A stretch of 32,873 nucleotides of DNA from Clostridia bacterium (GTDB taxonomy: Bacteria > Bacillota > Clostridia > Oscillospirales > CAG-272), in contig JAFQOX010000056.1 in NCBI GenBank assembly GCA_017412045.1, forward strand, positions 1 to 32,873, given 5' to 3'. Made by a program: the position numbers and the translations under genes. This document shows positions 23,839 to 32,563 of this stretch, in pieces (positions within the stretch are counted from its first letter, which is position 1; the number at the start of each line of letters is the position of its first letter). Below the pieces are notes generated by a model. It saw only the letters and a program-made list of their open reading frames with translations, was not told the origin of the DNA and did not search any database.

Positions 23839-24061
23839 AGTGGTCTCCGTTTATCTTTGTTTTGTATGGGATCATGGGAGAAAACCCATGTTTTTACCCG
23901 TTTTTTCAATAAGATTTGTTTTGTTTTTACTTTTTGTATAATAAATTGTACATTTTTTTTGGTAAAAAATCAATGGATTTTTTGATTTTTTTATAGTAAT
24001 ATAAAGTCATATGGTACATTCCGTAAAATATTTTTGTATATATATTAAGGAGAACTGTTTT

Positions 24062-24700
24062 ATGGCAAACGCAATTCTGACTGAAATTTCCGAAAAGATC
24101 CAGAAGGGTAAGACCAAGGACATCAAGGCGCTCGTCCCCAAGGCGCTCGAAGAGGGCGTTCCCGCAAGCGAGATCCTCAACGACGGCTTGCTCGACGGTA
24201 TGAATATCATCGGCGTAAAATTCAAAAACAATGAGGTTTTCGTTCCCGAGGTTCTGATCGCGGCAAGAGCGATGAAGGCGGGCACGGAGATCCTGAAGCC
24301 CTATCTGATTTCCGACAACGTCAGCGCAAAAGGAAAGGTCGTTCTCGGAACGGTACGCGGCGACTTCCACGACATCGGTAAGAACCTCGTCAAAATGATG
24401 ATGGAGGGTCACGGTCTCGAGGTCATCGACCTCGGCGTGGACGTAGATCCCGCCGCCTTCGTCAGCGCGGCAAAGGAAAACGGCGCGGATATCATCGCCT
24501 GCTCCGCTCTGCTGACCACGACCATGGCGGAAATGAAGAACGTCGTCGAGCTCTGCAAGGCAGAGGGCATCCGTGACAGCGTGAAGATCATGATCGGCGG
24601 CGCGCCCATCACCGATGCTTACAAGGCTGAAATCGGCGCGGACGTTTATACCTCCGATGCCGCTTCCGCGGCAGAAGCGGCAGCCGCTTTCTTTGCGTAA
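24062..24700 (+). CDS. Corrinoid (B12-binding) protein of a methyltransferase system
   Basis: A 212-residue two-domain protein of the MtaC/MtbC/MttC type. An N-terminal four-helix cap (about 1-88) precedes a Rossmann B12 domain. The cobalt-ligating motif is D-F-H-D-I-G (Asp101, His103, Gly106). SAL (148-150) and IGGAP (178-182) complete the DxHxxG-SxL-GG signature, so base-off/His-on cobalamin is expected. It would carry a methyl group between a substrate-specific methyltransferase and an acceptor enzyme. AAGGAG (24047-24052) sets ATG 24062; an upstream frame extension lacks an RBS. The UroD-family gene starts 15 bases later. No reductive activator (RamA/MtaA-type) is in the window. Confidence 0.92.
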   Translation: MANAILTEISEKIQKGKTKDIKALVPKALEEGVPASEILNDGLLDGMNIIGVKFKNNEVFVPEVLIAARAMKAGTEILKPYLISDNVSAKGKVVLGTVRGDFHDIGKNLVKMMMEGHGLEVIDLGVDVDPAAFVSAAKENGADIIACSALLTTTMAEMKNVVELCKAEGIRDSVKIMIGGAPITDAYKAEIGADVYTSDAASAAEAAAAFFA

Positions 24701-24715
24701 GGAGATAGGACTGCT

Positions 24716-25834
24716 ATGAAATGGACAAACAGAGAGTACGTCGATCTGATGACGTACAATCATCCGAAGCGTCCGATGTTTTCCGAGCTGTTCGGACCGA
24801 TCGTCGGACTTCCTGATGAATGGCGCGCGCAGGGCGCAACGGAGGACATGATCGCCATGCGCGGATTTGCCTTTGATTACGTCCCCTATTACAATCTCGG
24901 CAATCTGGATTCCGTTCACCGTCCGAAGGACGTCGTGCTGGAAAATACGCCTACCCGTTACGTCGGCATCGATCATTACGGCAGAAGAGTCCGCATGGAT
25001 AAGAGAACCTCGACCATCCCGCTTCCCGAGTCCTATCCCGTGGAAACGATGGATGATTGGCTGAAGATCAAGCATATGTTCGAATACGATCCCTGCCGCA
25101 TTTCCGACGACGAGATCGAGAAGGCAAAGCGCTTGCAGGACGAGGGCGTGGTGATCCGATCCGAAATTCTCGGCGGCTTTGACATCCTGCGCGAGCTGAT
25201 GGGCGAGGAAAATTGTTGCATCGCCTTCTACGAGGATCCCGAGCTGATCGAGGATATTCTCCGCACGATCTCCGAGACCAATGTCAGAGTCCTCTCGCAG
25301 ATCTCGAAAAAGCTGACGATCGACCAGCTTTCCGTACACGAGGATATGGCGGGCAAAACGGGTCCCATGATCGGACCGAACCTCGTTTCCGAGTTCATCG
25401 TGCCGTATTATCTGCAATCCTGGGAGCTCGTCAAGGATGCGGGTACGAAGCTTTTCTGCCAGGACAGCGACGGCAATATGAATCCCGTTATCGATGCCTT
25501 CATCGAAGGCGGCGTCAATATCTTCTATCCCTGCGAGCCTGCGGGCAATATGGACATCGTCGCGCTTCGCAAGAAATACGGTCACAAGATCGCGTTCCGC
25601 GGCGGCATCGATAAGCACGTAATCCGCAGAACCAAGGAAGAGATCGACAGGGAGCTGGCATACAAAATGCAGCCCTGCATGACCGAGGGCGGCATCGTAT
25701 TCAGTCTGGACCACCGTATTCCGAACGGAACGCCGCTGGAAAATTATATTTACTACGTCCGCAGAGCCAGAGAGCTTCTCGGGCTCGATCCCTTTGAAGA
25801 CTGCGAGCCTTCGTGGGGAAGAATGGCGTTTTAA
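24716..25834 (+). CDS. Uroporphyrinogen decarboxylase-family methyltransferase
   Basis: A 372-residue UroD-superfamily TIM barrel, the family that also includes MtaA, MtbA and CmuA corrinoid methyltransferases. Possible thiol or metal ligands are Cys248 (LFCQDSDGN), Cys273 (YPCEPAG) and His333 (LDHRIPNG). The HxC pair of MtaA is not present, since Gln249-Asp250 occupy the region. A GGIDKHVIRR segment and the C-terminal ENYIYYVRRARELLG are typical of the orphan UroD-like proteins found next to corrinoid proteins. AAGGAG (24699-24704) precedes the ATG, 15 bases after the corrinoid gene. It probably methylates or demethylates its partner corrinoid protein, with a substrate not yet known, and is not a heme enzyme. 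Confidence 0.87.
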   Translation: MKWTNREYVDLMTYNHPKRPMFSELFGPIVGLPDEWRAQGATEDMIAMRGFAFDYVPYYNLGNLDSVHRPKDVVLENTPTRYVGIDHYGRRVRMDKRTSTIPLPESYPVETMDDWLKIKHMFEYDPCRISDDEIEKAKRLQDEGVVIRSEILGGFDILRELMGEENCCIAFYEDPELIEDILRTISETNVRVLSQISKKLTIDQLSVHEDMAGKTGPMIGPNLVSEFIVPYYLQSWELVKDAGTKLFCQDSDGNMNPVIDAFIEGGVNIFYPCEPAGNMDIVALRKKYGHKIAFRGGIDKHVIRRTKEEIDRELAYKMQPCMTEGGIVFSLDHRIPNGTPLENYIYYVRRARELLGLDPFEDCEPSWGRMAF

Positions 25835-25848
25835 TGATGCAGAACGAT

Positions 25849-25885
25849 TTCCGTGGAACGTTTTTACGTTCCGCGGAATTTTTTG
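25849..25885 (+). terminator. Intrinsic terminator of the corrinoid operon
   Basis: TTCCGTGGAACG (25849-25860) pairs with CGTTCCGCGGAA (25867-25878) with one G-U pair, then TTTTTTG. Confidence 0.88.
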
Positions 25886-25893
25886 TATTTTCC

Positions 25894-25925
25894 GTGACCA
25901 AATACCTTTTTTCGCGATTATATAG
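25894..25925 (+). promoter_or_regulatory. Possible ECF-type promoter of the sigma-serpin operon
   Basis: GTGACC (25894-25899) and a TATATAG region near 25920 stand about 20 bases apart, with CGCG between. This resembles autoregulated ECF sigma promoters more than a housekeeping promoter, but the match is loose. Confidence 0.3.
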
Positions 25926-25984
25926 ATGTAAAGACTTATAGAATAACGCCGTCGGAAGCGTGCGAACGCAGGGAGGTGAGAGAG

Positions 25985-26545
25985 ATGGACGACGAAAGGA
26001 TCATCGCGCTGTATTGGGCGCGGAACGAGGATGCAATCAAGGAAACCCGCAATAAATACGGGCGCTACTGCTATGCGATCGCTTATAAAATTCTGGGCAA
26101 CGATTTGGATGCCGAGGAATGTGAGAGCGACACGTATTTTGCCGCGTGGAACAGCATTCCGCCCGCAAAGCCAACCGCGCTGTCGGTTTTTCTGGGCGCG
26201 ATCACGCGCAGGCTCTCGCTCGACCGATGGCGCAGGCAATACGCGGAAAAGCGCGGGCATGGCGAAACGGCGCTATCGCTTTGCGAGCTGGAGGAATGTA
26301 TTCCTGCCGGAAAGAGCATCGACGAGGCGATGGAGGAAAAAGAGCTCTCGGCGGCAATTTCCGATTTTTTGCGGAAGCTGCCTCAAGCGCAGGCATCCGT
26401 ATTTGTCCGACGTTATTGGTATTTTGATTCCGTTTCCGATATTGCGGAGCGCTACGGATTCGGTGTAAGCAAAGTAAAAATGATGCTGAAACGAACGAGA
26501 GATCAACTGTTAATGAAACTGGAAAAGGAGGGATTTTTCATATGA
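25985..26545 (+). CDS. ECF-type sigma-70 family sigma factor
   Basis: A 186-residue sigma factor with region 2 (about 15-85, including YAIAYKILGNDLDAEECESD) and region 4 (about 120-175, including SVFVRRYWYFDSVSDIAERY and a KVKMMLKRTRDQL recognition helix). Regions 1 and 3 are absent, as in ECF sigma factors. GGGAGGTGAG (25970-25979) gives ATG 25985; an in-frame GTG at 25976 is less likely. Its stop overlaps the start of the serpin gene by four bases (ATGA). In such pairs the second gene usually encodes a membrane anti-sigma factor, so the serpin protein takes that position. The leader may hold an autoregulated promoter. Confidence 0.92.
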   Translation: MDDERIIALYWARNEDAIKETRNKYGRYCYAIAYKILGNDLDAEECESDTYFAAWNSIPPAKPTALSVFLGAITRRLSLDRWRRQYAEKRGHGETALSLCELEECIPAGKSIDEAMEEKELSAAISDFLRKLPQAQASVFVRRYWYFDSVSDIAERYGFGVSKVKMMLKRTRDQLLMKLEKEGFFI

Positions 26546-27945
26546 AATCCGAAAAATTACAGAACGCGATCGGCGGAATTGACCCCGATCTGATCGCAAA
26601 AAGCGAGCAACCGCTCCGAAAAAAGCGCGAGCATCGAATCGTATCCGCCATCGCCGCCATGCTGGTATTGGCGATCGGAATCGGCATACTTTTCTGGAAT
26701 CCGGGCTATTTCGATGATACCGTCTATGCCGGGGATATGCTTGCCGTTTATCCGACGACGGTTCCTTATGCGGAATATCTGACCGACCCCGAGGGATACG
26801 ATGCATGGAGGAAGGATCAGGAAAAGAAGTGGGAATATTTCGGCGAAGCTGAAAATATGGAAAGTTTCATCAAGGTGACCGCCGCGGAACTCCTTTCGGG
26901 CGAAGGGGAAAATATCGTATATTCTCCCCTGAACGTCTATATCGCACTTGCCATGCTCGCGGAAACAACGGACGGTGATACGCGAAAACAGCTTTTAAAC
27001 TTACTTGATGCAAGCGATATCGAAGTGCTTCGCAAGCGTGCCAATACGCTTTGGAACGCCAATTACAACGATGACGGATTGACGTCGAGCATTCTCGCAA
27101 GCTCACTCTGGATGAATGAAAAATATTCTTTTTATAAGGAAACGCTCGAAATATTAAGAGACAATTATTACGCTTCCTCCTATCAGGGAAACATGGGCTC
27201 CAAGAAATTTGAAGATGCGTTACACGCATGGCTGAACGAACAGACTCGCGGCCTTCTTTCGGATCAGATCGAAGAGCTTGCGCTTTCACAGGATACGATT
27301 TTGGCGATTGCGACAACGGTATATTTCCAAGCGAATTGGCACGATCCATTTTCGAAAAAGAATACGGAAAAAGGCGTTTTTCACGGCACGGCTGGCGATA
27401 CGGAAACGGACTTCATGCATCAGGCATACGTCGGCTCCTACTATCAAGGCGGGAATTTTTCCGCCGTTGCCAAGAGTATGAAGGGAAGCGGCAATATGTG
27501 GTTCATATTGCCCGAAGAGGGTGTTTCCGTAAACGAGCTTTTAGAGAATCAAGAAGCGCTTTCATTTCTCGGAAAAAGCGATACCTTTAGCAATCAAGAA
27601 GCCGGAATTGATTTATCGGTACCGAAATTCGAGGTATCCTCCAAGCTCGATCTGAAGGAAGCTCTGAAAAATTTGGGTGTGACCGATTGCTTTGACCCGT
27701 CCCGCTCGGATTTTTCTCCGTTGATCACGGGGGAGGACGATATTTACGTCGGCAAGATCGATCACGGCGCGCTCGTCAGCATTGACGAAAACGGTGTGGA
27801 AGCAACGGCTTATACGTTTTTGCCGATGTACGGCACATCTTCCAATAAAATCACGGTAAAGTTTACCGCAGACAGACCCTTTCTTTTCGTCATCACGGGC
27901 GAGGACGGGACGGTCATGTTTATCGGCGTTGTCAATCAGATGTGA
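26542..27945 (+). CDS. Membrane-anchored serpin with anti-sigma-like N-terminus
   Basis: A 467-residue protein. Residues 1-32 are a cytosolic segment (LQNAIGGIDPDLIAKS) like the start of clostridial proteins encoded after ECF sigma genes. A transmembrane helix spans about 33-52. From about 105 a full serpin domain follows, with IVYSPLNVYIALAMLAE, TTVYFQANWHDPF and the C-terminal FTADRPFLFVI. The reactive-loop hinge is ENGVEATAY (416-424), close to the EEGTEAAAA pattern needed for inhibitory loop insertion, though Val419 replaces Thr and Tyr424 replaces Ala. The scissile bond is probably within TFLPMYGTSS (425-434). The serpin domain would face outward. Gut Clostridia serpins (siropins) inhibit host serine proteases; coupling to a sigma factor suggests sensing as well as inhibition. 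Confidence 0.9.
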   Translation: MKSEKLQNAIGGIDPDLIAKSEQPLRKKREHRIVSAIAAMLVLAIGIGILFWNPGYFDDTVYAGDMLAVYPTTVPYAEYLTDPEGYDAWRKDQEKKWEYFGEAENMESFIKVTAAELLSGEGENIVYSPLNVYIALAMLAETTDGDTRKQLLNLLDASDIEVLRKRANTLWNANYNDDGLTSSILASSLWMNEKYSFYKETLEILRDNYYASSYQGNMGSKKFEDALHAWLNEQTRGLLSDQIEELALSQDTILAIATTVYFQANWHDPFSKKNTEKGVFHGTAGDTETDFMHQAYVGSYYQGGNFSAVAKSMKGSGNMWFILPEEGVSVNELLENQEALSFLGKSDTFSNQEAGIDLSVPKFEVSSKLDLKEALKNLGVTDCFDPSRSDFSPLITGEDDIYVGKIDHGALVSIDENGVEATAYTFLPMYGTSSNKITVKFTADRPFLFVITGEDGTVMFIGVVNQM

Positions 27946-27986
27946 AATCCTCAGCCGAGACCGATTCAATCTCATACCATATCATA

Positions 27987-28038
27987 AAGCAAGCGGTTTT
28001 CCATACCGAAAAGGTAAGGAAAACCGCTTGCTTTTTTT
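27987..28038. terminator. Strong terminator between convergent serpin and metA genes
   Basis: AAGCAAGCGGTTTTCC (27987-28002) pairs perfectly with GGAAAACCGCTTGCTT (28018-28033) and is followed by TTTTTGG. The inner ATACC/GGTAA is nearly paired. The hairpin shares AAGCGGTT, CCATACC and AACCGCTT with the one at 9843-9893. Confidence 0.9.
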
Positions 28039-32462: not shown

Positions 32463-32563
32463 AACAGCGGGATGCAACGGCAGCACAGCAACGTTATTTG
32501 TTTTCGTCCGGAAGTCAACTCCCCGTATTTCCGGCACTTCAACTCGCTGTCGTTTACTCTGTT
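32463..32563 (-). ncRNA. THF (tetrahydrofolate) riboswitch, class I
   Basis: Read on the minus strand, the leader has P1 AACAG/CTGTT, then GAGTA, P2 ACAGCGA/TTGCTGT, GTTGAAGTG (family GUUAAGUG), P3 CCGGAA/TTCCGG with GGGGAGTTG in its loop, ACGAAAACAA (family ACGAAGCGA) and TTGCATCC near the 3' end. The order and wording agree with the Firmicutes THF aptamer. It lies about 80 bases before folT. I see no strong terminator after it, so control of translation near GGAGGTG is likely. The TCCTC/GAGGA hairpin (about 32430-32445) may be part of the switch. Confidence 0.75.

Follow-up and report, generated by a model that had tools for sequence, protein, structure and literature searches.

A sigma factor gene coupled to a membrane-anchored serpin gene suggests a protease-sensing switch in gut Clostridia

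Introduction

Why should a serpin stand, behind a short cytosolic segment and a membrane helix, in the position of an anti-sigma factor? The question is raised by two genes in a stretch of 32,873 nucleotides from a Clostridia bacterium, the whole of which is called the window here. A preliminary description of this DNA had proposed that an external protease attacking the reactive loop of the serpin alters the activity of a sigma factor encoded just upstream. Read from the sequence itself are the two genes and their conservation as a pair, the layout of domains, the common module, and also hinge, promoter motif and terminator, all presented below. They suggest that a serpin anchored in the membrane may act in gut bacteria as a trap that reports attacking proteases when these spring it.

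Results

Layout of the two-gene unit

The window is contig C50 of a genome assembly of 2.57 Mb (158 contigs, completeness 87.7%), presumably that of a gut species of Clostridia, as its nearest named relatives are Clostridia of animal guts. The pair and its flanking signals are as follows.

25849-25878, forward strand: terminator-like hairpin after the upstream gene (13-pair stem, then a T-run)
25894-25922, forward strand: predicted ECF-type promoter, GTGACC-N15-CGATTATA (motif match)
25985-26545, forward strand: ECF sigma-70 factor of 186 aa (Pfam and NCBIfam matches)
26542-26545, forward strand: ATGA start/stop overlap of the sigma and serpin genes (reading of the open frames)
27986-28034, forward strand: strong intrinsic terminator closing the two-gene unit (fold of -36.4 kcal/mol, z of -9.1, then a T-run)

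The sigma frame runs from the ATG at 25985, immediately preceded by a ribosome-binding-site-like GGGAGGTG within which the alternative GTG start at 25976 falls, to the TGA at 26543-26545. The serpin frame, of 467 codons, begins with the ATG at 26542 and ends with the TGA at 27943-27945, and the overlap of the two genes claimed in the preliminary description is thereby borne out. The first product has regions 2 and 4 of an ECF sigma-70 factor: Sigma70_r2 was matched above the Pfam cut-off (E 1.3e-10), region 4 fell marginally below the cut-offs (24.3 against 25.7 bits and 24.0 against 24.1 bits), and the NCBIfam model sigma70-ECF (TIGR02937) was matched with 61 bits against a cut-off of 42.9. 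The hairpin at 25849-25878 is weak alone, three such sites having been found in the scan against a mean of 3.5 in shuffled sequence. The promoter motif has its sole match in the window at this place (shuffled mean 0.02) and is presumably read by the unit's own sigma factor. Given the hairpin, the promoter and the closing terminator, the unit looks self-contained, and the sigma and serpin genes look like a two-gene unit with a predicted ECF-type promoter and a terminator of its own.

Two other features of the window were recorded. A gene pair for a corrinoid protein and a URO-D-type methyltransferase lies directly upstream of the sigma gene (24011-25834, forward strand), and a tetrahydrofolate riboswitch lies at 32463-32563 on the reverse strand (Rfam THF, 76.9 bits).

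Conservation of the pair in relatives

Recorded genomes yielded 204 relatives, of which the best 80 were retained. A same-strand sigma gene was found adjacent upstream of the serpin gene in 59 of the 80, as expected of a membrane anti-sigma factor, which is coded beside its sigma factor and conserved there in relatives. In these 59 the end of the sigma gene lies anywhere from 22 bases ahead of the assigned serpin start to 88 bases beyond it, and the 4-nt overlap is present in 50, as counted with a script that gave overlap no bonus. The remaining 21 relatives show no sigma gene, with two of them (L156 and L179) having fewer than 600 bases of upstream sequence, and 15 of the 21 unlinked serpins carry a lipobox-like site and resemble lipoproteins.

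A second survey, partly overlapping the first, covered the genome of the window and 58 relatives. Serpins were found in 34 of these 59 genomes; the 55 match rows gave, after two fragments were dropped, 53 serpin places including that of the window, at four of which the frame is cut by the contig end, so that no upstream gene could be seen. An adjacent upstream sigma gene was present at 16 of the 53, of which 13 were recognised by similarity to the window sigma and the other three, which are more divergent, by their Pfam matches (G017 C118, G054 C31 and G023 C32). At two of the 16 (G029 C5 and G023 C32) sigma and serpin genes are 15-20 bases apart without overlap. Within the genus, the pair occurs in five of the six other genomes, with sigma factors 61-70% identical to that of the window, and no serpin was found in the sixth. 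A single-sequence scan of the genome contigs returned 16 pattern matches, with no relative among them. The adjacency, whose absence from relatives had been set beforehand as grounds for refuting the proposal, thus came out favourably in both surveys, and the placing of the serpin protein in the anti-sigma position holds far beyond one genome.

The phylum-wide sample comprised 299 genomes, 44 of them with a serpin match at E 1e-20, and 29 loci besides the window were examined. Two of these are coupled to a sigma gene (L236 and L237), 25 are without one, and two have a sigma-like frame farther upstream, at 145 and 795 bases. The pairing is therefore largely a trait of one serpin clade, with the other serpins as a control. 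The 80 relatives come from Clostridia, many of them of animal guts. Roe deer, goat, sheep, water deer, water buffalo, rabbit ('Lapin') and chicken are among the sources recorded for linked pairs, and one linked pair comes from a named strain, Pseudoflavonifractor phocaeensis An507 (L141).

Two loci were noted in their own right. In the G029 C5 pair, an in-frame TGA stands early in the sigma gene (L058, 2141-2143, forward strand), which may reflect a broken gene, a sequencing error or something else. At L042 (932-2910, forward strand), a divergent sigma gene overlaps the gene of a serpin anchored by a transmembrane helix; this serpin resembles the lipoprotein serpins, its N-terminus is different and longer, and the pair looks like an independent recruitment.

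An anti-sigma-like module at the N-terminus

The serpin protein of 467 aa consists of about 33 cytosolic residues, one transmembrane helix, a linker and a complete serpin from about residue 105. Its parts, all on the forward strand, are listed below.

26542-26640, forward strand: cytosolic module, residues 1-33, anti-sigma-like (34-aa model; covariation with sigma)
26641-26700, forward strand: single transmembrane helix, about residues 34-53 (hydropathy)
26722-26754, forward strand: membrane-proximal segment, from a possible signal-peptidase site at V61-Y62-A63 to the conserved Y70-P71 (A-x-A pattern)
26854-27942, forward strand: serpin domain, about residues 105-467 (Pfam Serpin, E 9.8e-67)
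27784-27846, forward strand: hinge and reactive-centre loop, residues 415-435, DENGVEATAYTFLPMYGTSSN (column conservation and counting)

This is the build that the preliminary description had given, namely a short cytosolic segment and one transmembrane helix followed by a complete serpin with a near-consensus hinge. Neither zf-HC2 nor a Class I anti-sigma domain was found in the protein, Serpin being its only Pfam match at E 0.001, and its start of about 34 residues has no Pfam or NCBIfam name or match.

Such a start could be a simple signal anchor, with the sigma factor merely aiding the expression of a secreted or anchored serpin through plain operon coupling; a 4-nt overlap alone is often seen where genes are functionally linked and would fit this. 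The sigma paralogues bear on the matter. The genome of the window (G000) holds five further close ones (E below 1e-45), behind each of which lies an overlapping gene that starts similarly and encodes no serpin (contigs C116, C126, C119, C88 and C45, loci L103-L107; the gene on C88 starts with TTG). Across the seven genomes of the genus, 34 sigma hits were obtained at E 1e-30 and 31 loci were examined, three hits being without a locus. One of the 31 lies at a contig edge and 30 have a downstream frame, encoding six serpins and 24 other proteins; the script used here favoured overlapping starts, and overlap counts from these loci were left unused. A hydrophobic core follows the start in all 24 non-serpin partners. 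A model was built from the first 34 residues of linked serpins and applied with the best of 480 shuffles (6.4 bits) as threshold; 19 of the 24 scored above it, as did none of the 21 sigma-free serpins (maximum -0.1 bits). The ectodomains of the 24 are in some cases mutually related and in most far apart; one has a beta-propeller domain, and in another the start is followed by several transmembrane segments.

Covariation was then measured over 60 linked pairs. The module and the sigma factor covary with a rho of 0.574 (permutation maximum 0.146), which is at the level of within-protein benchmarks (0.549 between two halves of the serpin and 0.473 between two halves of the sigma factor), while the module and the serpin of its own chain reach 0.172 and sigma and serpin 0.147. 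Removal of near copies left 48 pairs and values of 0.571 for module and sigma and 0.200 for module and serpin. Within the sigma factor, covariation with the module is strongest in region 4 (0.58, region 2 reaching 0.43), which adjoins the module on the DNA, so that joint recombination could contribute to the covariation. A cross-test against the non-serpin partners was weakly positive (row-wise r 0.226, permuted mean 0.142, p 0.012).

From a generic signal anchor we would expect neither a conserved sequence, nor its occurrence in non-serpin partners, nor a match to the sigma factor, nor its lack in the 21 unlinked serpins; we regard plain operon coupling as very improbable. The cytosolic segment, with its basic cluster and the membrane helix behind it, is instead an unnamed, putatively anti-sigma-like module, and the interpretation given in the preliminary description is supported in part. 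Since the module is common to the non-serpin partners and covaries with the sigma factor over its own serpin, the simplest reading of these sequences would be that sigma and module form one functional cassette into which the serpin is plugged as a sensor.

A strictly vertical pairing of one sigma lineage with one serpin lineage was also considered and rejected, given the low sigma-serpin covariation, at least 11 linkage changes on the serpin tree and the scatter of serpin-linked sigma factors over several branches of the sigma tree, on which eight changes were counted, at least two of them forced by well-supported branches (both being quick trees).

Membrane helix and juxtamembrane segment

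The basic cluster before the helix predicts an N-in topology. In all 59 linked relatives the hydrophobic core begins between residues 29 and 67, and the 16 aa before it hold 3-9 K/R. At the position of V61-Y62-A63, a site of A-x-A type is present in 42 of the 60 linked proteins and in 3 of the 21 unlinked ones (Fisher p 1.9e-5, uncorrected for kinship). Rival sites of this type lie two residues on (33/60 linked, 8/21 unlinked) and four residues on (41/60 and 11/21). The pattern is thus suggestive of a conserved signal-peptidase site after the helix, the position of which is not unique. Genes for an M50 (site-2-type) protease and for signal peptidase I are present in the genome of the window; both are ordinary genes found in nearly all bacteria.

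Serpin domain and reactive loop

The serpin is a whole domain: the Pfam match covers residues 121-465 and profile positions 19-368 of 370, and the best solved relative is conserpin-AATRCL (6ee5, E 7.3e-42). Its hinge reads DENGVEATAYT (residues 415-425), of which ENGVEATAYT forms an inhibitory-type P17-P8 segment that is conserved in the clade and near, though not exactly at, the consensus. We take the conserved E-x-G to be P17-P15 in alpha-1-antitrypsin numbering, and counting from it places P1-P1' of the window serpin at T432-S433. Mean entropy is 0.68 in hinge columns 415-424 against 1.55 for the domain and 2.11 for the loop at 425-437, which is variable, but other stretches of the domain vary more. 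A small P1 residue is found in 52 of 60 linked and all 21 unlinked proteins and glycine at P2 in 48 of 60 linked ones; this points to elastase-like proteases as candidate targets of the serpins of this clade.

Some animal serpins are non-inhibitory and bind hormones, and the domain might likewise be a non-inhibitory sensor that binds a ligand or peptide. Such a function would accommodate the clade's residues at two positions where the textbook hinge has T and A: P14 is V or C in most members, and P9 is as a rule bulky (Y or F). It is harder to reconcile with conserved hinge columns, small residues at P12-P10 in most of the clade, variable loop columns and the prevalence of a small P1. A non-inhibitory domain is judged quite unlikely.

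Promoter motif and candidate regulon

The strict promoter motif also occurs at L118, L121, L122, L124, L126 and L133, and variants of it were seen by eye in other close relatives; among the seven genomes of the genus it is confined to G000 and G005. A looser motif was found at 17 of the 60 linked loci, where shuffled sequences gave 0-7, and distant relatives must therefore use other promoters. The genome of the window holds two strict matches, one at the sigma-serpin unit and one within a long same-strand frame, and seven looser ones that include both. As each of the six matches other than that of the unit falls within an open frame of 162-745 codons on the same strand, no second target of the sigma factor is in sight among them.

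A regulon of this kind would also suit a serpin that is output only, in which case the module would be a real anti-sigma module, some other envelope signal would free the sigma factor, the anchored serpin would be a shield whose amount the sigma factor sets, and its reactive loop would be silent towards that factor. The sigma-free serpins of the same clade likewise indicate that the domain can work without signalling. In the genome G042, moreover, sigma, a zinc-finger (zf-HC2) anti-sigma factor and an anchored serpin without the module follow one another; such a row stands at L068 (2938-5902, reverse strand). It is a second arrangement by which a serpin comes under sigma control, and the serpin there need not be the anti-sigma factor, as suits an output role. 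Against it, the serpin of the window occupies a slot that several different ectodomains hold behind paralogous sigma factors, which is the usual position of a sensor. We rate an output-only serpin as unlikely, if the most serious of the alternatives.

The second serpin of the genome of the window (L078, G000 C7) is lipoprotein-like and without a sigma gene. Upstream of it stands a CGACTATAT box resembling the -10 element of the sigma promoter, with no GTGACC at the right spacing from it; this is a lead only.

Discussion

A proposed protease-sensing switch

We consider it probable that the two genes form a sigma/anti-sigma switch, in which the serpin protein would act as a membrane anti-sigma factor with a serpin sensor outside. 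What we infer is how it would operate: the binding of the sigma factor, the inhibition of a protease, the trigger, the route of cleavage and autoregulation. The steps would proceed as follows. The cytosolic module of 33 residues would hold the ECF sigma factor, the helix would span the membrane, and the inhibitory-type serpin would act as sensor on the outside. An external serine protease favouring a small P1, hence elastase-like, would cut the reactive loop, upon which the serpin would snap into its relaxed or protease-bound form, a one-way change close to the membrane. This collapse would expose a juxtamembrane site and mark the serpin protein for proteolysis, most likely by a site-1 cut after the membrane helix followed by a site-2 protease, and the sigma factor would be freed. 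This cleavage route is proposed from the RsiV-like order of the parts, the A-x-A site and the signal peptidase and M50 genes. The freed sigma factor would then transcribe its own operon from the GTGACC/CGA promoter and yield more serpin, so that the sensor would also be the remedy.

The likeliest logic by analogy would be that of RsiV, with sensor and inhibitor in one and probably positive feedback, rather than a simple loss of the serpin. More tentatively, and at somewhat less than even chances, the jump from the stressed to the relaxed state would itself be the transmembrane signal; the serpin would then be a single-use covalent detector that disarms the attacker while freeing the sigma factor, and one of several plug-in ectodomains carried by a still unnamed anti-sigma module of gut Clostridia.

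The pairing with a sigma factor ties a clade of serpins to transcription control. If the switch reading is true, the protein would be a protease sensor working by suicide inhibition, a signalling principle that, to our knowledge, is known nowhere else in bacteria. The data also suggest that gut Clostridia hold a family of paired ECF sigma and anti-sigma factors with a common cytosolic module of about 34 residues and different ectodomains.

Comparison with known systems

The RsiV family is marked by the Pfam domains DUF3298 and DUF4179 and the RsgI family by the RsgI cytosolic Pfam domain; neither RsiV-type nor RsgI-type domains were matched in the window protein, in which Serpin is the sole Pfam match. 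The protein is thus not a member of the RsiV family, though it may work in an RsiV-like manner.

Siropins, the B. longum serpin and saburopin share with the window protein the serpin fold and an origin in gut bacteria, elastase-type targets are reported for them, and they are described as inhibitors, with no mention in the passages compared of an anti-sigma module or a sigma partner (PMC6718151, PMC5127057, PMC8201313). A large serpin phylogeny reports that some prokaryotic serpins are membrane anchored, and neither 'sigma' nor 'operon' occurs in its main text (PMC8233489); in the review PMC8103513 there is no occurrence of 'serpin'. Class II anti-sigma domains are shorter than 50 aa, with two helices in CnrY (PMC7406223); the module, which is similarly short, has no Pfam or NCBIfam match. 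No published description of the sigma-serpin pair was found among the papers searched. Sensory ectodomains are familiar in anti-sigma factors; the conserved, modular placing of a serpin at that position appears to be new.

In the SigI/RsgI system of Clostridium thermocellum, a set of paralogous sigma/anti-sigma pairs likewise carries sensor ectodomains on the outside, but the signals are polysaccharides, unlike the putative protease here (PMC3990059). The closest analogue of the sigma-serpin switch is RsiV. In Bacillus subtilis, where it pairs with sigma-V, RsiV is a single-pass membrane anti-sigma factor of an ECF sigma factor; its ectodomain binds, senses and inhibits a host enzyme, lysozyme, and a signal-peptidase site lies just outside the membrane, at which signal peptidase cuts before RasP acts (PMC5014341, PMC6066255). 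RsiV/sigma-V is also reported from Clostridioides difficile. The window protein has its parts in a like order, with a possible signal-peptidase site, and differs from RsiV in that its ectodomain is a serpin, a protease is its putative target, and capture is expected to be covalent and irreversible.
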